This document shows positions 10,888 to 26,580 of a DNA stretch of 36,150 bases, piece after piece. Each line of letters starts with the position of its first letter. Position 1 is the stretch's first letter. The notes beneath the pieces were generated by a model. The model was not told the DNA's origin. It did no database searches and worked only from the letters and a program-made list of their open reading frames with translations. The translations under genes and the position numbers were made by a program. The stretch is from the NCBI GenBank assembly GCA_002699485.1, contig PAAV01000020.1, forward strand, positions 1-36,150. Reading direction: 5' to 3'. The DNA is from Chloroflexota bacterium (GTDB taxonomy: Bacteria > Chloroflexota > Dehalococcoidia > Lucifugimonadales > UBA2962).

Positions 10888-12291
10888 ATGGATGATAACT
10901 CAAACTTTTTATATACCCGTTCAATTGCAGAAGCCTCGAAACTTATAAAAAGACGTGACATTTCTCCTGTTGAACTGACTCAAGCATTTTTAGATCGTAT
11001 AAGAGACCAAAACTGTTCTTTAAATGCCTATATTACTGTGACACAAGAGATCGCGATAAGGCAGGCACGTAAGGCTGAAAAAGAGATCCAAGCAGGATTT
11101 TATAAAGGCCATTTACATGGAATACCAATTGCTTTAAAAGATTTATTTGATACCGGAGGTATCAAAACGACTTCTGGGTCTATGCTATTTAAAAACAGGA
11201 TTCCAGTAAAAGACTCAACAGTCACTGCTCGATTAAATGAATCCGGCGCTGTTCTTTTAGGCAAGCTAGCCATGAGTGAAAATGCCATTGCTGGAATAGG
11301 AAGAGGTTTTAAGGACCCAAAGAATCCCTGGGATATTTCACGAACAGCGGGTGGATCAAGCAATGGTTCAGCGGTTGCAGTTGCGTCAGGGATGGCTATG
11401 GGCGCTATGGGCTCATGTACAAGAGGTTCAATTCGGGCTCCTGCTTCATATTGTAATGTCGTAGGGTTAAAGCCAACATATGGACGTGTTTCTAGGCATG
11501 GTGTATTACCTTTAAGTTGGACTTTGGACCATGTTGGGCCAATGACATATAGAGTTGAAGATGCTGCAATTATGTTAGATGCGATTTCAGGATATGATAA
11601 GAATGACCCCACAAGTTCTAAGCAAAGTTTGAAAAAGTTTGAGATACCGTCCAAGCGTCGTTTAGATGGCATAAAAATTGCTGTAGCGAAACATTACTTT
11701 TTTGATAAAACTCGCCCAGAAGTTGATCCTCAAGTTATAAAAATCGCTGAAGAGGCATTAGAAAAATTAGATCAGCTTGGGGCCATTATTGAAGAGATTA
11801 ACATTCCGGCGTTGGAATACGCAGATGCAGCTGCATTGGTAATACTACTTAGTGAAGGATATGCCGTACACCAGAGGGATATTTTGACAAATCCCGAATT
11901 ATACGGAGAGCTTAATTTACTTGAATTGAGAGTGGGAGGTTTGTTTTCTAATACCGAATATATCTCTGCACAGAGGATACGCACTATTTTGATTCAACAG
12001 TATGCAGAAGCGTTCAAATCATATGATTTTTTTGCATCCCCTACATTTGCTACGGTTGCGCCAACTAATTTAGTTCCGACACCTAGCGCAATAACTCAGA
12101 TGCCTAGTTTCACTGGCCCATATAATCTGACTGGATTGCCTGCAATATCTGTGCCAGCTGGATTTACAGATGAAGGTTTGCCTGTAGGTTTGCAATTGGC
12201 TGCAAACGCTTTTAAGGAACATGAGTTATTGCAACTGGCATATATTTACGAACGAGAAACTTGTTTTTATAAGACTAGACCAAATCTTTAG
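10888..12291 (+). CDS. Amidase-signature family hydrolase
   Basis: Hydrolyses a carbon-nitrogen amide bond; the substrate is unknown. The 467-residue length is typical. The Ser-cisSer-Lys triad is visible as K84 (IPIALKDLFDT), S157 (GGSSNGS) and S181 (RGSIRAPASYC), with S157 and S181 24 residues apart as in FAAH. The usual T-D-x-G-G-S-I-R stretch reads S-C-T-R-G-S-I-R, so an arginine (R179) replaces the first glycine of the oxyanion-hole loop. It could be a GatA-like, AtzE-like or general amidase. The small gene just upstream and the absence of gatB argue against a normal Gln-tRNA amidotransferase here. Confidence 0.9.
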   Translation: MDDNSNFLYTRSIAEASKLIKRRDISPVELTQAFLDRIRDQNCSLNAYITVTQEIAIRQARKAEKEIQAGFYKGHLHGIPIALKDLFDTGGIKTTSGSMLFKNRIPVKDSTVTARLNESGAVLLGKLAMSENAIAGIGRGFKDPKNPWDISRTAGGSSNGSAVAVASGMAMGAMGSCTRGSIRAPASYCNVVGLKPTYGRVSRHGVLPLSWTLDHVGPMTYRVEDAAIMLDAISGYDKNDPTSSKQSLKKFEIPSKRRLDGIKIAVAKHYFFDKTRPEVDPQVIKIAEEALEKLDQLGAIIEEINIPALEYADAAALVILLSEGYAVHQRDILTNPELYGELNLLELRVGGLFSNTEYISAQRIRTILIQQYAEAFKSYDFFASPTFATVAPTNLVPTPSAITQMPSFTGPYNLTGLPAISVPAGFTDEGLPVGLQLAANAFKEHELLQLAYIYERETCFYKTRPNL

Positions 12292-12375: not shown

Positions 12376-12399
12376 TTTGATTACCTGTTTATAATCAAA
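12376..12399 (+). promoter_or_regulatory. Candidate promoter with inverted repeat for the ncRNA
   Basis: A consensus -10 box TATAAT lies at 12390-12395. It is embedded in an 8-bp inverted repeat TTTGATTA (12376-12383) / TAATCAAA (12392-12399). A -35 match at the right distance is poor (around 12366-12372), so a regulator or an alternative sigma factor may be involved. The expected start of transcription is near 12402, just ahead of a strong RNA hairpin. Confidence 0.5.
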
Positions 12400-12401
12400 T
12401 C

Positions 12402-12567
12402 TGGAGACGCGTGGTGTCAGGTTATTGTGTATAGGTGGGAGGATGAATTCTCCAGATAAGGAGGTTATGCGAATTGGACATTAACAGTAGTTGGAGGTGT
12501 TCCAGTTAGGTGTTCACAGGGACACCTCTCATAATAGGCCTCACTTTAAAGTGGGGCCTATTTTTCT
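12402..12567 (+). ncRNA. Predicted stand-alone structured RNA, about 165 nt
   Basis: The 266-base gap between the amidase and cinA holds a complete transcription-unit layout. It has a -10 TATAAT (12390-12395), then a 9-bp hairpin stem ATCTGGAGA (12399-12407) / TCTCCAGAT (12449-12457). An AAGGAGG tract follows (12458-12464), then a second hairpin GAGGTGTTCC (12494-12503) / GGGACACCTC (12519-12528), and a terminator ending at about 12566. The next gene is on the opposite strand, so this is unlikely to be a leader. I checked by eye for SRP, RNase P, tmRNA and common riboswitch cores and recognised none. A 6S-like or regulatory RNA is possible. The first stem may start slightly before the true 5' end. 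Confidence 0.5.
12535..12566 (+). terminator. Terminator at the end of the ncRNA, overlapping the cinA stop
   Basis: Stem TAGGCCTCAC (12535-12544) pairs with GTGGGGCCTA (12551-12560) with one G-T wobble and a six-base loop, followed by TTTTTCTTTT. The T-run is good on the plus strand and poor on the minus strand. It therefore mainly ends plus-strand transcription, although the right arm contains the cinA stop codon (12558-12560). Confidence 0.9.
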
Positions 12568-13814
12568 TTTTCGAAACCGTTTTGAATTACATCTCGAATT
12601 AAGTTTAATGCTTCAAAGCTGGTTCTAATTCGGTCAGGGTTTCCTCTACCTGAAACATTTAAATTCCTGCTTTTAAAACTTTTACCGTCAGTAACAGTAA
12701 TAAAAGTTTTGCCTCTCGCTAAGTTTTCAGCATCATCTGATATGTCTGGAGCTCCATGTAACACCACACTTAATTCCGTCCCACAATTTTTTAAAATCTT
12801 TAAAGCCAAGTTTTCAATCAAATTTTGCGTAGTATTTGTAAACTTAGTTTTGGAGTCCGCATTTTTTACTTGAGACAAACGGTCTATAGTTTCAATTCCA
12901 TTACCAACTATGCCTTCTACAAAATGATCAAGCGAGGCCCTTTGCAGCCGATCGCACAGCATGCCTTGGGTAACATCTTCGTATGAACAGATAGTGATAT
13001 TGGCTTTCCTTAACAATTCTCCTACAACCGTTTCCATAGTTTGATCATTTGAAGCAAAAATATGTTTGCCTAATAATGATCGAACTTCTTTTTCAACAGG
13101 TTCGATCAAAATGTCAGCTTCTTTTACAGATCCTGCTTTTGCTGTGATACGTACATCTACTTGTCCAGGATGGGCTAAAACGCCGACGGTTGGGTTGCTT
13201 GAGTCTGCAATCAAATCACCAATTAAGTGATCTACGTTACTTTCTCCTAATTCCGCTACTTTGAGTATTTTGTAACTGATTACATCAGAAAGCGTAAATT
13301 TTTCTTTTAAATATGGAGTTACTTCATTTGAAAATAACCATTTAAGTTCGAAAGGAACTCCTGGCAAAGCAAATACAACACCTCTAGGATCTTCTACCGC
13401 AAAAGACGGTGCAGTGCCATTAGGATTATGTATTTTAACTGAACCTTCAGGAATATATGCTTGTCTTTCGTTATTTTTTGTCATCAGAAACCCACGACTA
13501 CGGAACATCGTGTCAATAGTGTTTAACAAGTCTTTGTCTAGGATTAGCTTTCTATGTGTGACCTCCGCTATAACTTCTCGTGTTATATCGTCTTGAGTAG
13601 GACCTAATCCTCCACCACAAATCACAATATCAGAACGCTCAAGTGCCTGATTTATTACATCAAACATTCGTGCCTTGTTGTCACCAACAACTGATTTTCG
13701 ATATAAATTAACCCCTATTTCAGTCAACCGTTGAGCCATCCAAGTGGCGTTGGTGTCCACTATCTGTCCTAGTAACAGTTCTGAGCCTATTGAAATAATT
13801 TCAGCACTAGGCAT
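12558..13814 (-). CDS. cinA: CinA-family protein with degenerate C-terminal deamidase domain
   Basis: CinA proteins join an N-terminal MoaB/MogA-like domain (ADP-ribose / nicotinamide-nucleotide pyrophosphatase) to a C-terminal PncC-type NMN deamidase. The 418-residue length fits. The N-domain is well conserved: IISIGSELLLGQIVDTNATW, CGGGLGPTQDDITRE and FALPGVPFELKWL. The C-domain (from about 260) is not: the expected E-S-C-T-G-G reads E279-D-V-T-Q-G284, with Asp at the catalytic Ser, and the later G-I-A-G-P motif reads H-G-A-P-D. Deamidase activity is probably lost while the nucleotide-hydrolase half may work. Start ATG 13814 is supported by the immediate MPSAEIISIGSE. Confidence 0.93.
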   Translation of the reverse strand: MPSAEIISIGSELLLGQIVDTNATWMAQRLTEIGVNLYRKSVVGDNKARMFDVINQALERSDIVICGGGLGPTQDDITREVIAEVTHRKLILDKDLLNTIDTMFRSRGFLMTKNNERQAYIPEGSVKIHNPNGTAPSFAVEDPRGVVFALPGVPFELKWLFSNEVTPYLKEKFTLSDVISYKILKVAELGESNVDHLIGDLIADSSNPTVGVLAHPGQVDVRITAKAGSVKEADILIEPVEKEVRSLLGKHIFASNDQTMETVVGELLRKANITICSYEDVTQGMLCDRLQRASLDHFVEGIVGNGIETIDRLSQVKNADSKTKFTNTTQNLIENLALKILKNCGTELSVVLHGAPDISDDAENLARGKTFITVTDGKSFKSRNLNVSGRGNPDRIRTSFEALNLIRDVIQNGFEKEK

Positions 13815-13936: not shown

Positions 13937-15214
13937 ATGGATAAAGATAGTAATGCTGAATCTAAAGAAAATAGAGTGACTCAGGGCCCGCTGAGCGGAA
14001 TTAAAGTCATTGATTGGACACTCTGGCAATTTGGGCCAGTTGCAGCAATGATGCTCGGTGATTTAGGAGCTGATGTAATAAAGGTTGAAGCATTAAGTGG
14101 TGAGCAAGGAAGAGCCATGTTTACTCTCAGTGGTATTGATAGAAGCTTGCCAGGCGGTCGAAATTCATATTTTGAAGCTAACCAACGTAATAAGAGATCG
14201 ATAGCCTTAGATTTAAAGCAACCTGAGGGAGTCGATGTTGTACGTAATTTGGTTGGTGGTGCCGACATTTTCTTACAAAATTATAGAAAAGGTGTGGCGG
14301 AGAGACTCGGTTTAGGTTACGAAGATCTGAAGGCTATTAACAATAAAATAATTTACGGTTCTGGTAGCGGATATGGCCCAGAAGGGCCTGATGCTCACAA
14401 ACCTGCTTTAGACACCGTTGGTCAAGCAAGATCAGGCTTAATGTATGCAACCGGACCCGATGGAGATGACCCATATCCAATCCAGGGCGTTGTAGCTGAT
14501 CAAATAGGTGGTATTATGCTTAGCTGGGGTATATTAGCTGCTCTCTATGCACGTGAAGATACAGGTGTAGGCCAACGTGTTGATGCATCACACTTAGGTA
14601 GCTCCATTTGGCTTCAAGGACTAGGAGTATCAATGAGCATGCTAACTGCTCACAAGCCAGCTTCGGAAACAAACTTAACGGCAAAACCATCTAGAGACAA
14701 AGCCTATAATCCGATTTCGAACTATTATCGCTGCAAGGATGGACGATGGTTAATGTTGGCCAACTTAGAAGCAGATAGATATTGGCCAACATTTGCTGCT
14801 GCATTAGGAATTGAAGAATTGGCTAGAGATGAGAAATTCATTGATACTGCATCAAGGGCAAAAAATAATCAGAAGTTGATTAAGTTACTCGATGAAGTGT
14901 TTGAAACCAAAACATATGATGAATGGGATGAGATACTGTCTTCATCTGGGGATTTTATATACGCACCTGTTCAGCAACTCATGGAACTTTGGGATGATCC
15001 TCAAGTTCAGGCTAACAAATATATAGTAGAAACTGATCACCCCACTTTAGGTAAAGTAAAGTTAGCAAATCATCCTATTAAATATAGTGAAACTCCTAGC
15101 TCAATCCGTAGATTAGCGCCTGAGATAGGTGAACATACTGAGGAAATATTGATAGAAGCTGGTTATTCTTGGGATGATATTGCTGATCTACAGGATAAGG
15201 GCGTCATATTGTAA
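13937..15214 (+). CDS. Class III (CaiB/BaiF) CoA-transferase
   Basis: Moves CoA between acyl-CoA and a carboxylic acid. The 425-residue product starts the family pattern at PLSGIKVIDWTLWQFGPVAA, then LGDLGADVIKVE and ANQRNKRSIALDLK. The catalytic aspartate is D159 in KPALDTVGQARSGLM, matching Asp169 of formyl-CoA transferase. DASHLGSSIW follows later. The acid substrate cannot be read from sequence; carnitine, oxalate/formate, bile-acid and aromatic-acid relatives exist. It stands alone on the plus strand and ends eight bases from a convergent SDR gene. Confidence 0.93.
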   Translation: MDKDSNAESKENRVTQGPLSGIKVIDWTLWQFGPVAAMMLGDLGADVIKVEALSGEQGRAMFTLSGIDRSLPGGRNSYFEANQRNKRSIALDLKQPEGVDVVRNLVGGADIFLQNYRKGVAERLGLGYEDLKAINNKIIYGSGSGYGPEGPDAHKPALDTVGQARSGLMYATGPDGDDPYPIQGVVADQIGGIMLSWGILAALYAREDTGVGQRVDASHLGSSIWLQGLGVSMSMLTAHKPASETNLTAKPSRDKAYNPISNYYRCKDGRWLMLANLEADRYWPTFAAALGIEELARDEKFIDTASRAKNNQKLIKLLDEVFETKTYDEWDEILSSSGDFIYAPVQQLMELWDDPQVQANKYIVETDHPTLGKVKLANHPIKYSETPSSIRRLAPEIGEHTEEILIEAGYSWDDIADLQDKGVIL

Positions 15215-22983: not shown

Positions 22984-25900
22984 ATGTATTTTAATATCAG
23001 ACTTTGGGAATTTACCGCAGGGTTTAGGATGAGAATTCTACTTGGTACTTTCTTTGGAGTATTAACGGCAGTTGCTGGCGTAAGTAGGCTGGTTATGTCC
23101 GGGTATGTTGTCGCTCTTGTTTTTCAAGGAGAGCCTTTCAACAGGGTTGTAATTTCAATTTTGGGTGTGATTTTGGCAATCATATCCAGGGCTGTTTTTC
23201 AGTACTTTAAAGAAATGACTGGCCATAGAACTGCCTTGAAAATACAGCAAAACTTGAGACGTCGTTTGTTTGCTAAAACTCTTGAATTAGGACCGGCTGT
23301 ACTACTTCGCAAAAGAACTGGTGATGTATTAGTGTCGGTGGTCGAAGGCGTAGAGGCTCTAGAGAGCTATTTTGGTGAATATCTGCCGCAGATGTTCGTA
23401 GGCCTGATCACACCTATAGGTTTATTTGTGTTTATGGCATTTCTAGATATATACACCGCGTTAATTTATTTGATTTTTGCATTAATTACCCTAATCGCTC
23501 CTTTGGCATTTCATAGGTGGAATGAAAAAAGTTCTCTTTTCCGTAGGGATGCCTATCATGATCTAAGTGCTGAGTTCCTGGATTCTGTACAAGGCCTTGC
23601 AACTCTAAAATCTTTTGGTCAGAGCGATATTAAAGGAGACGATCTAGCGGAAAAAGCCAGAAGGGTATTTCGATCGACAATGGCAATTTTAGCTACTAAC
23701 CAAGCAACTATCGGTGTGACATGGCTGGGTATATCTGGAGGAGCTGCACTTGCTTTGGGCTTAGGAGCTTTGAGAGTTAGCTCGAGTGAACTTGATTTAT
23801 CGACACTATTAATTGTCGTAATGCTTGGCGTAGAAGTATTTAGACCATTAAGAGAGCTTACCTTGTTGTACCATCATGGTATGGTGGGCATGGCATCTGC
23901 AAAGTCCGTTTTAGAGATAATAGATGCGGAGCCATTAGTTACTGATAGCAGAGATGTATCACGACCTGACCAGTTTTTGGATTCAACACTAACATTTCAG
24001 GATGTCTCGTTTTCTTACCCTGGCCGTGAAGATGTTGTATTAGATGACATGTCTTTTTCTATATCAACTGGTGAGCGTCTTGCAATCGTAGGGCCAAGCG
24101 GTGCAGGTAAGACCACTATTGTTTCATTAGTATTGCGATTTTTTGACCCTGATTCTGGATCTGTTTGGATTGGCTCCGAGGATTTGAGGTCAATACCTTT
24201 AGATTTTGCTAGAGAACATATCAGCGTTGTCTCCCAGGATACGTATATTTTCTTTGGCACGGTAGCCGAAAATTTAAGGTATGGAAAATTAGATGCCACC
24301 GATGAAGAACTCGAGGAAGCGGCTGCTGCTGCAAATGCGTTGGACTTCATAAAATCATTGCCACAAGGATTTGATACTTTATTAGGTGAACGTGGAATTA
24401 AGCTCTCTGGTGGTCAGAAACAGCGCATAGCTATTGCAAGAGCCCTTCTAAAAGATGCTCCAATATTGATATTAGATGAAGCGTTATCAAGCGTGGATGC
24501 AGAAAATGAATTTTTGATTCAATCTGCGTTAGATGAATTAATGGTTGATCGAACTACGCTAATCATTGCACATAGGCTTTCAAGCGTAATTGGAGCTGAC
24601 AGAATTTTAGTGATTAATCAAGGCCAGGTGGTTCAGGAAGGCTCACATGATGAATTAATTTCAACAAAAGGCATATATTTTAACCTTATGATGGATCAAC
24701 TAGAGTCCAATGAATCCAACTTGAAGACCGATAGCAATGAGGTAATGGAAAGAATTAGTTCACCGAATAAGAATTTTGGAGGAGCTGGTTTACCGCCCAC
24801 TAAAATTAAAAAGTCAAACATAAAGTTGAAAGAGGTTTTTGTCCGGTTGCTTAAATTAATAGAGCCATGGCGGACAGAACTTATACTCACTTTTTTATTG
24901 GGCATAGGTAGAGTAGCAGTATTACTTGGACTAGGTATTGTAAGTGCATATTTAGTAGCTGAAGTGGCAAATGGAAATGCAATTTTTGCTTTATTAGTAT
25001 CTCTGGGAGTGCTTGCTGTACTGACACCAGTATTTCAATGGGCTGAGTCTTGGATTGCACATGATTTAGCCTTCAGGTTACTGGCTGAGATGCGAATTGA
25101 TCTTTACAAAAAATTAGACAAACTTGCCCCTGCATATTTAGTTAGACATAGATCAGGTGACATAGTATCCGCTGTAACAACAGATGTTGAAACCGTTGAA
25201 TTGTTCTTTGCCCACACTGTAGCACCAGCATTCGTGGCTTTAGCGGTTCCTTTATCTGTTTTGTTGATTATAGGTTCAATCGAGTGGTTATTAGCATTGA
25301 TCCTTATGCCTTTACTTATATTGATAGCCTATATGCCTTTTCGAGTTCGGGATAAGCTGGATGTATTAGGATTCGAATCGCGTGAGCAATTAGCCGAAGT
25401 TAATGCACACATGGTTGACGGTATACAGGGTATAAAAGAGATTGTTTCTTTTGGTCGATCTTCTCTAAGGCTGGAAGAAGTGGACCGGAATCAGAATAAA
25501 TATGCATCTTTGAGGATAAAGTTCTTTCATATCTTAACTGTTCAAAGATCGTTAATTGAATCAGCTATGGGGCTAGGTGGCATTTTGGTTCTTGGGTTGG
25601 GGGCTTATTTGGTTACAATCGGAGATTTGTCAGTTTCATTTTTACCTCTGGTATCGATAATTGCATACACTGCATTTATACCGATTTCAGAGGTTGCCCA
25701 AGTAGGCCGTCAATTGTCAGACACAATTGGAAGCGCCCGCAGGATATTCAGAATACATGATGAGCCTATAACAATATTAGATGGACCAAGGACGCTTAGT
25801 TCTGAAAACAAAACATCCAAATCGCTGAATCGAGGCGAGTTGCAATTTAAAAATGTCACATTTAGATATATATCTGAAATGGATCCTGTGTTACAGGATG

Positions 25901-26580
25901 TCAATTTTGTATTAAATCCTGGAGAGAATCTAGCATTAATAGGGCGTTCTGGTGCTGGCAAGACTACCGCTGCACATCTGATTTTACGTTTCTGGGATCC
26001 GCAAACTGGTGCGATATCGCTAGATGATGTAGATATACGTAGCTATAAGCTGAATGATTTAAGAGATCAAATAGCCCTAGTATCTCAGGATACATATTTG
26101 TTCAACACGTCGATAAAAGAAAATTTGATGATGGCTCGACCGGATGCATCTGAGAGTGAAATTATTCAGGCTGCAAAAAGTGCTTCGGCTCATGAGTTTA
26201 TAATGGATCTACCTGATACATACAATACTCTTGCAGGTGAAAGAGGGTTTCAGCTGTCCGGAGGTCAGCGGCAACGCATATCCATAGCTAGAGCGTTTTT
26301 AAAAAATGCACCAGTATTAATATTGGATGAAGCGACATCTCACTTAGACGCTGAAAGCGAATCGTTAATTCATCAATCCCTTGACACCTTAATGTCTGGT
26401 AGGTCAACAATAATAATCGCTCATAGATTGTCTACTATTAAATCTGCTGACAACATAATTGTTCTGGATGACGGAAAGGTGATAGAACAAGGAACTCATG
26501 ATGTTCTGTTAAGTGGAAGCGGTCTTTATGCAAGTTTGGTTTCCAAACAAACTCAACGCACCACTCGGCCGAGTATATAA
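22984..26580 (+). CDS. Fused CydDC-like ABC exporter (TMD-NBD-TMD-NBD)
   Basis: A 1198-residue full-length exporter. In order it has TMD1 (1-320), NBD1 with Walker A GPSGAGKTT (370-378), signature LSGGQKQR (from 474) and LILDEALSSVD, a polar linker (about 575-620), TMD2 (about 625-925), and NBD2 with GRSGAGKTT (987-995), LSGGQRQR (from 1091) and LILDEATSHLD. Both ATP sites look intact. The first half (LELGPAVLLRKRTGDVLVSV VEGVEALESYFGEYLPQ) resembles CydD of the cysteine/glutathione exporter CydDC; the second is CydC-like. No cydAB is nearby. It could instead be a lipid or drug exporter. No clear ribosome-binding site precedes ATG 22984. Confidence 0.92.
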   Translation: MYFNIRLWEFTAGFRMRILLGTFFGVLTAVAGVSRLVMSGYVVALVFQGEPFNRVVISILGVILAIISRAVFQYFKEMTGHRTALKIQQNLRRRLFAKTLELGPAVLLRKRTGDVLVSVVEGVEALESYFGEYLPQMFVGLITPIGLFVFMAFLDIYTALIYLIFALITLIAPLAFHRWNEKSSLFRRDAYHDLSAEFLDSVQGLATLKSFGQSDIKGDDLAEKARRVFRSTMAILATNQATIGVTWLGISGGAALALGLGALRVSSSELDLSTLLIVVMLGVEVFRPLRELTLLYHHGMVGMASAKSVLEIIDAEPLVTDSRDVSRPDQFLDSTLTFQDVSFSYPGREDVVLDDMSFSISTGERLAIVGPSGAGKTTIVSLVLRFFDPDSGSVWIGSEDLRSIPLDFAREHISVVSQDTYIFFGTVAENLRYGKLDATDEELEEAAAAANALDFIKSLPQGFDTLLGERGIKLSGGQKQRIAIARALLKDAPILILDEALSSVDAENEFLIQSALDELMVDRTTLIIAHRLSSVIGADRILVINQGQVVQEGSHDELISTKGIYFNLMMDQLESNESNLKTDSNEVMERISSPNKNFGGAGLPPTKIKKSNIKLKEVFVRLLKLIEPWRTELILTFLLGIGRVAVLLGLGIVSAYLVAEVANGNAIFALLVSLGVLAVLTPVFQWAESWIAHDLAFRLLAEMRIDLYKKLDKLAPAYLVRHRSGDIVSAVTTDVETVELFFAHTVAPAFVALAVPLSVLLIIGSIEWLLALILMPLLILIAYMPFRVRDKLDVLGFESREQLAEVNAHMVDGIQGIKEIVSFGRSSLRLEEVDRNQNKYASLRIKFFHILTVQRSLIESAMGLGGILVLGLGAYLVTIGDLSVSFLPLVSIIAYTAFIPISEVAQVGRQLSDTIGSARRIFRIHDEPITILDGPRTLSSENKTSKSLNRGELQFKNVTFRYISEMDPVLQDVNFVLNPGENLALIGRSGAGKTTAAHLILRFWDPQTGAISLDDVDIRSYKLNDLRDQIALVSQDTYLFNTSIKENLMMARPDASESEIIQAAKSASAHEFIMDLPDTYNTLAGERGFQLSGGQRQRISIARAFLKNAPVLILDEATSHLDAESESLIHQSLDTLMSGRSTIIIAHRLSTIKSADNIIVLDDGKVIEQGTHDVLLSGSGLYASLVSKQTQRTTRPSI

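Follow-up and report, generated by a model that had tools for sequence, protein, structure and literature searches.

Does the gap between an amidase gene and a convergent cinA gene in a Chloroflexota bacterium hold an RNA gene of its own and, if so, what could its RNA do? The question was raised by an initial annotation of a 36,150-nt stretch of DNA (contig PAAV01000020.1, hereafter the window), which proposed a new, free-standing structured ncRNA at this position. Bacteria of the SAR202 group abound in the deep ocean and have for the most part not been cultured, and no paper on small RNAs in these bacteria was found in the literature searched. A literature search that left most subscription journals outside its scope returned no earlier description of the RNA reported here.

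Results

A structured RNA gene between an amidase gene and cinA

The unit runs over about 160 nt from the -10 box (12390) to the terminator (12562), and is flanked by the amidase gene (10888-12291, PF01425) and by cinA (PF00994/PF18146/PF02464). The coordinates of its features are collected in Table 1. All of the annotated elements were recovered: the TATAAT lies inside an 8-bp inverted repeat (arms TTTGATTA and TAATCAAA), the 9-bp 5' hairpin (here H1) is present, a second hairpin pairs GAGGTGTTCC (12494-12503) with GGGACACCTC (12519-12528), and the first plus-strand gene downstream begins only at 13937. The terminator with its T-run is also present (12533-12562), with a stem of 13 pairs rather than the 10 reported. 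The inverted repeat is probably incidental; it is absent from the copies of other families, in which the -10 box itself is conserved. The placement between an amidase gene and cinA holds at this locus, but the link is one of local synteny only. Two elements had been overlooked, namely AAGGAGGT-N8-TTG...TAG (12458-12509) and a rival hairpin.

Table 1. Features of the conserved unit, in window coordinates.
Feature	Position	Strand	Remarks
Whole conserved unit	12387..12566	+	-10 box to terminator end; covariance-model match
-10 box, TATAAT	12390..12395	+	Invariant in the first eight copies, nearly so in 50
Hairpin H1, ATCTGGAGA (12399-12407) with TCTCCAGAT (12449-12457)	12399..12457	+	Covariation
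Shine-Dalgarno site AAGGAGGT (AAAGGAGG or longer in most homologs), predicted	12458..12465	+	Complementary to 16S tail ACCTCCTTTCTA of relatives
Mini-ORF, TTG GAC ATT AAC AGT AGT TGG AGG TGT TCC AGT TAG (LDINSSWRCSS*)	12474..12509	+	Open in 57/57 homologs
Internal Shine-Dalgarno-like GGAGG/GAGG, inside mini-ORF	12493-12497 (GAGG 12494..12497)	+	Conserved spacing
Hairpin A, strand 1 (12493-12506) with strand 2 (12516-12529)	12493..12529	+	Covariation
Rival hairpin B, AGGTGTTC (12508-12515) with strand 2 of A	12508..12528	+	96.2% of cells paired
Intrinsic terminator, predicted	12533..12566	+	Overlaps last codons of convergent cinA (12558-13814, minus strand)

The fold is far more stable than expected (z = -4.9; none of 200 shuffles equally stable), but the minus strand folds as well (z = -5.2), so that fold energy alone proves little. 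The plus orientation is read from the -10 box, T-run and Shine-Dalgarno site, and from the many G-U pairs, which the minus strand would turn into mismatches. The conserved -10 box and terminator predict an independent transcript, and transcription would be expected to start near 12401-12403. A remnant of a coding region is ruled out by the -10 box, terminator and covarying stems that the unit has of its own.

Searching Rfam 15 at the gathering threshold gave no match in the window, and no family matched the window copy; permissive scans with this copy and four distant ones returned only sub-threshold matches, mostly terminator-like. 6S RNA (RF00013) was rejected: its model has no match in the bacterium's own genome, with a control search that misses 9 of 14 known genomes, and the fold consists of three separate hairpins. 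tmRNA (RF00023) was rejected too, since the genome's own tmRNA lies on another contig and ARAGORN finds none in the window.

Homologs lie almost all in one bacterial order and covary

A plain DNA search found the unit in three of four other genomes of the genus and pieces of it in other families. A covariance model built from five copies (R1, cut-off E <= 0.01) matched 55 of 250 genomes of the order, and a second built from 50 copies (R2, cut-off E <= 0.001) matched 57 of 247, with one copy per genome in about 20 families. The window copy, which is part of R1's training set, scores E 3.2e-42 against R1, and E 1.1e-27 against R2. Elsewhere a single convincing copy was found, in a different order (G336, L094/L120, E 2.9e-9), and the covariance-model search of the wider phylum gave nothing above chance level. 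When the core motif was scanned against 84,980 species genomes, nine named records were returned, all of them SAR202 cluster, Dehalococcoidia or uncultured Chloroflexi assemblies, and the scan gave no hit in any other organism; the window accordingly comes from a SAR202-type genome.

Among 49 distinct sequences, two-sided (compensatory) changes occur at 27 of 31 base pairs, and standard pairs make up 93% of base-pair cells. Covariation scores 0.634, compared with 0.247 in shuffled alignments and at most 0.146 with slid partners, in an alignment that was fitted to the structure, which favours its score. RNAalifold predicts the same three hairpins from this alignment. Two-sided changes occur at seven of eight pairs of H1 (90.8% of cells paired) and at all nine pairs of the terminator helix (helix 4; 99.8%), while hairpin A has 96.1% of cells paired and a covariation score of 0.498 (0.294 shuffled).

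Finding homologs whose helices covary settles the reality of the structured RNA. We conclude that the predicted small RNA gene between the amidase gene and cinA is real and previously unlisted, and that a new structured RNA with predicted independent transcription is well supported: the -10 box and terminator are conserved, every helix shows covariation, and Rfam has no match. The label 'ncRNA', by contrast, is probably wrong or incomplete, given the Shine-Dalgarno site and conserved mini-ORF described below.

In most other families the H1 loop has a conserved GANAGYUU core in the loop alignment. The longer form GGUGG...GAUGANAGYUUANGG is found in most homologs (e.g. L054:6097-6158) and is altered in the window's genus. 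This core may be a putative ligand- or protein-binding site.

Several matches were weaker. The leaders of genus g28 and of L119 are likely akin to the main group as judged by their E-values to R2 (2.9e-5 and 5.5e-4, respectively), which are weaker than those of the main group. Three candidates from other Chloroflexota (L095, L096 and L097) were rejected as relatives, with E-values of 0.003-0.009 in 300-400 genomes searched, about the number expected by chance; what they have in common with the RNA is limited to a Shine-Dalgarno site, a start like GATAGTAGT and a terminator. Each has a strong Shine-Dalgarno site, a 15-24-codon ORF (MDDNSSRGLW..., MGSSKRMGVTAGEAR and MDSSCTSCVSETSCTEVRGR) and a terminator, and they are perhaps other, unrelated-looking free-standing mini-gene RNAs. 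L117 (E 2.3e-5) was excluded from the ORF statistics; at L117:6001-6215 (G175) an 18-codon ORF, MGKRSIGSLGAHSSERAC*, with a strong Shine-Dalgarno site and a terminator lies just downstream of a HisRS-like gene.

A conserved mini-ORF behind an exceptionally strong Shine-Dalgarno site

The window mini-ORF has 11 codons and begins with TTG eight bases after AAGGAGGT, its first residue being fMet if the TTG start is used. The 16S tail ends in ...GGATCACCTCCTTTCTA in ten relatives, two of them from the window's genus, while a 16S search of the window's own assembly gave no match. The RNA's site complements this tail over 7-13 nt, with a median duplex energy of -17.8 kcal/mol against -8.15 kcal/mol for 264 neighbouring genes, whose complementarity reaches at most 8 nt and fewer than 1% of which are equally strong. 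A second, internal GGAGG or GAGG precedes the last sense codon by 6 nt in 55 of the 57 homologs and by 7 nt in the remaining two. Six nucleotides is a normal Shine-Dalgarno distance with the stop codon in the A site, and it is thus plausible that a ribosome would be held at the stop codon by this internal GGAGG.

An ORF of 9, 10 or 11 codons is present in all 57 homologs, which are related and so represent fewer independent cases than 57, and in 7.6% of shuffled versions; the other two frames carry stops in 14 and 57 of the 57. Within the ORF, lengths differ by multiples of three, whereas the spacer before it is not so restricted. Most ORFs have the same length, which leaves few independent indels to test the frame. 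A short ORF with a predicted Shine-Dalgarno site that overlaps a hairpin strand, as in leader attenuators, was found by comparison only, in 57 of 57. The very strong Shine-Dalgarno site, together with a conserved ORF of 9-11 codons whose start and stop codons are exchangeable, gives the RNA its likeness to a leader-peptide attenuator. The reading we prefer, and to which we give an even chance of being right, is a regulatory RNA of the attenuator-leader type that is mostly free-standing and whose fold would be set by ribosomes on the mini-ORF.

A structured sRNA acting in trans, in which the Shine-Dalgarno-like segments (AAAGGAGG, GGAGGUG) or the anti-Shine-Dalgarno-like strand 2 would bind the ribosome or mRNAs without being translated and the ORF would be incidental, would account for the near-invariance of UUG and UAG in the main group, which could reflect RNA motifs instead of codons, for the almost invariant loop UAGGUGUUC, and for a strand 2 that, reading GGAACACCUCC in many copies, resembles the 16S tail GGATCACCTCC. 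On the main group alone the ORF is therefore doubtful, and the distant copies decide. There, start and stop codons are swapped (ATG and TAA in L120, TAA in L116), and ten loci of genus g28 keep L[DE][TI]N[NYD]KRG[VA]L[NIT] with conservative residue changes and a TGA, TAA or TAG stop. Together with the frame kept in 57 of 57 and a TTG that persists where its flanking bases are lost (L074, L077 and L088), this makes an incidental ORF unlikely.

That the 9-11-residue peptide itself matters, with the hairpins only controlling its synthesis or the stability of the RNA, we consider improbable. Its D-S-S-x-R-R-like start in the main group, the conservative changes within g28 and the apparent conservation of the ORF would fit such a small-protein gene, and there is a precedent for leader peptides that act in trans (peTrpL, PMC7298713). 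However, the peptide diverges strongly between families (LDSSSRRCSR, LKHSSTRCIF, LFNYLRGCNR, LENSQTGCLK), its 3' half follows the hairpin, and outside the hairpin changes at second codon positions are as frequent as those at third positions (28 against 25).

Two rival hairpins share one strand

Leader-peptide attenuators have pairings that exclude each other, and hairpins A and B would be such a pair. Strand 1 of hairpin A is the 3' half of the ORF, and its apical loop in the window (TAGGTGTTC, 12507-12515) starts with the stop codon, as does the 9-nt loop UAGGUGUUC across copies. Hairpin B starts within this stop codon, with the loop segment AGGUGUUC pairing with strand 2. In 49 sequences, strand-2 columns 208, 209 and 210 have mismatches to their A partners in 20, 16 and 9 cases, against 0, 0 and 1 to their B partners. 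Columns 208, 209 and 211, each opposite a U in B, switch only between A and G; at the A partners of columns 208-210 all four bases occur. In two copies, L052 (one pair) and L116 (AGG/CCU to AAA/UUU), compensatory changes have replaced G-C by A-U in hairpin B. The transition-only pattern supporting B may partly be mutation bias. It is well supported by these comparisons that predicted hairpins A and B share strand 2, are mutually exclusive and are both kept.

When the footprint of a ribosome at the stop codon was blocked, 27 of 55 copies folded with strand 2 paired to the first Shine-Dalgarno site; this predicted feedback pairing fails in L116. Modelled folds showed no competition between the terminator and A or B: blocking the end of the ORF left the terminator intact, and these folds thus give no support to antitermination by strand 2.

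Gene neighbourhood

The RNA stays conserved while the neighbouring genes change. Downstream genes in most of the 50 loci are convergent and of varied families (cinA, phosphotriesterase and others), and neither the window nor most of these loci has a same-strand gene downstream that could be regulated, which points to an RNA without a constant cis target. An attenuator that controls the next gene by terminator read-through would suit the loci of genus g28 and L119, whose directly following co-directional NUDIX gene (PF00293) gives the element the look of a true leader, and those of L077, L088 and L089, with ABC-transporter genes directly downstream. As the general function, however, this is very unlikely, since the RNA is fully conserved next to convergent and varied genes and its terminator does not compete with A or B.

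Mini-ORF leaders of the same design stand directly before a co-directional NUDIX hydrolase gene in L118, L119 and L137-L145 (genus g28 and G161), with a TGA, TAA or TAG stop and a long hairpin between the ORF and the NUDIX gene.

Upstream, many loci have a glyoxalase-fold gene (PF12681/PF00903) just before the RNA and on the strand opposite to it, with its cluster present in 32 of 50. At loci L050-L089 this upstream gene is divergent and lies 30-130 nt from the RNA in most families; it is absent from the window's genus, where the upstream neighbour is the amidase gene. At the other end of the unit, the 3' end of cinA overlaps the terminator at 12558-12566, and this predicted terminator may serve both directions, for the RNA and for cinA. 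Elsewhere in the window (22984-26580), a gene encodes a 1198-aa protein that combines two ABC-transporter ATPase domains with membrane regions in a single chain.

Discussion

Comparison of the homologs establishes a conserved unit with a predicted -10 box, terminator, helices, strong Shine-Dalgarno site and ORF. In the course of events that we infer, comprising transcription and translation in the cell, their order, ribosome holding and feedback, RNA polymerase would start just after the -10 box and end at the terminator. A 30S subunit would dock on the exceptionally strong Shine-Dalgarno site and start, probably slowly, at UUG, and the ribosome would read 9-11 codons through strand 1 of hairpin A to the stop codon in A's loop. 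With no ribosome present, strand 2 would pair with strand 1 to form hairpin A; with a ribosome part-way in the ORF and covering strand 1, it would pair instead with the copy that starts in the stop codon, forming hairpin B. At the stop codon, the GGAGG six nucleotides before the last sense codon would pair with the 16S tail and could hold the ribosome, and strand 2, now free, could base-pair with the first Shine-Dalgarno site and so prevent new rounds of initiation. The RNA would in this way report how well ribosomes start and move on the mini-ORF.

The output would most likely be an action in trans and, in one genus (g28), control of the NUDIX gene directly downstream. Since the terminator stands outside the competition and usually no gene follows it, we propose a switch RNA acting in trans for most families. 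A more specific version, which we regard as doubtful, is a free-standing ribosome sensor in which the super-strong Shine-Dalgarno site and weak UUG would load a ribosome, the internal GGAGG would hold it at the stop codon and the A/B switch would convert ribosome availability into a trans signal, for example by release of the anti-Shine-Dalgarno-like strand. If this is true, a ribosome-sensing RNA would be an attenuator working without a downstream gene.

A conserved single-copy RNA with covariation and a predicted bistable, translation-linked design offers metatranscriptome and reporter studies a concrete target. Should it act in trans, attenuator logic would be used as a stand-alone regulator. 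It also illustrates how cross-family comparison of start and stop codons can reveal a ten-codon mini-ORF of the kind that gene finders pass over.

Parts of this design have counterparts in known systems. Like the tag frame of tmRNA, the mini-ORF is about ten codons long and ends at a stop codon within a hairpin, but the SAR202 RNA has no tRNA-like part and would initiate with a predicted Shine-Dalgarno site. At the frameshift site of RF2 (prfB), the ribosome is influenced by an internal Shine-Dalgarno-like sequence that shortly precedes a stop codon, and a similarly placed sequence is found here; its spacing to the last sense codon is 6 nt, compared with about 3 in prfB, and there is no conserved downstream frame. 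Dual-function sRNAs such as SgrS/SgrT and SR1/SR1P are short independent transcripts with a terminator and a small ORF. In the SAR202 RNA, by contrast, the ORF lies inside the conserved fold with its stop codon in a conserved hairpin loop, and the peptide is shorter and poorly conserved.

The closest design is that of the trpL/hisL/ilvL-type attenuators, which have their own promoter, a strong Shine-Dalgarno site, a short ORF, exclusive pairings and a terminator at the end. The SAR202 RNA shares the predicted promoter, Shine-Dalgarno site and terminator, an ORF end that forms strand 1 of a hairpin, a stop codon in or near the loop, and exclusive pairings. It differs in that it usually has no downstream gene, its terminator takes no part in the rival pairings, strand 1 competes with a copy starting in the stop codon, and there is no obvious run of regulatory codons beyond a few serine AGU codons. 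In Sinorhizobium meliloti, the terminated leader RNA of a trp gene, rnTrpL, and its leader peptide, peTrpL, act in trans (PMC7298713). The SAR202 RNA stands alone in most genomes and has no sequence kinship with rnTrpL. The S. meliloti system offers a precedent for a leader RNA and its peptide acting in trans (PMC7298713).
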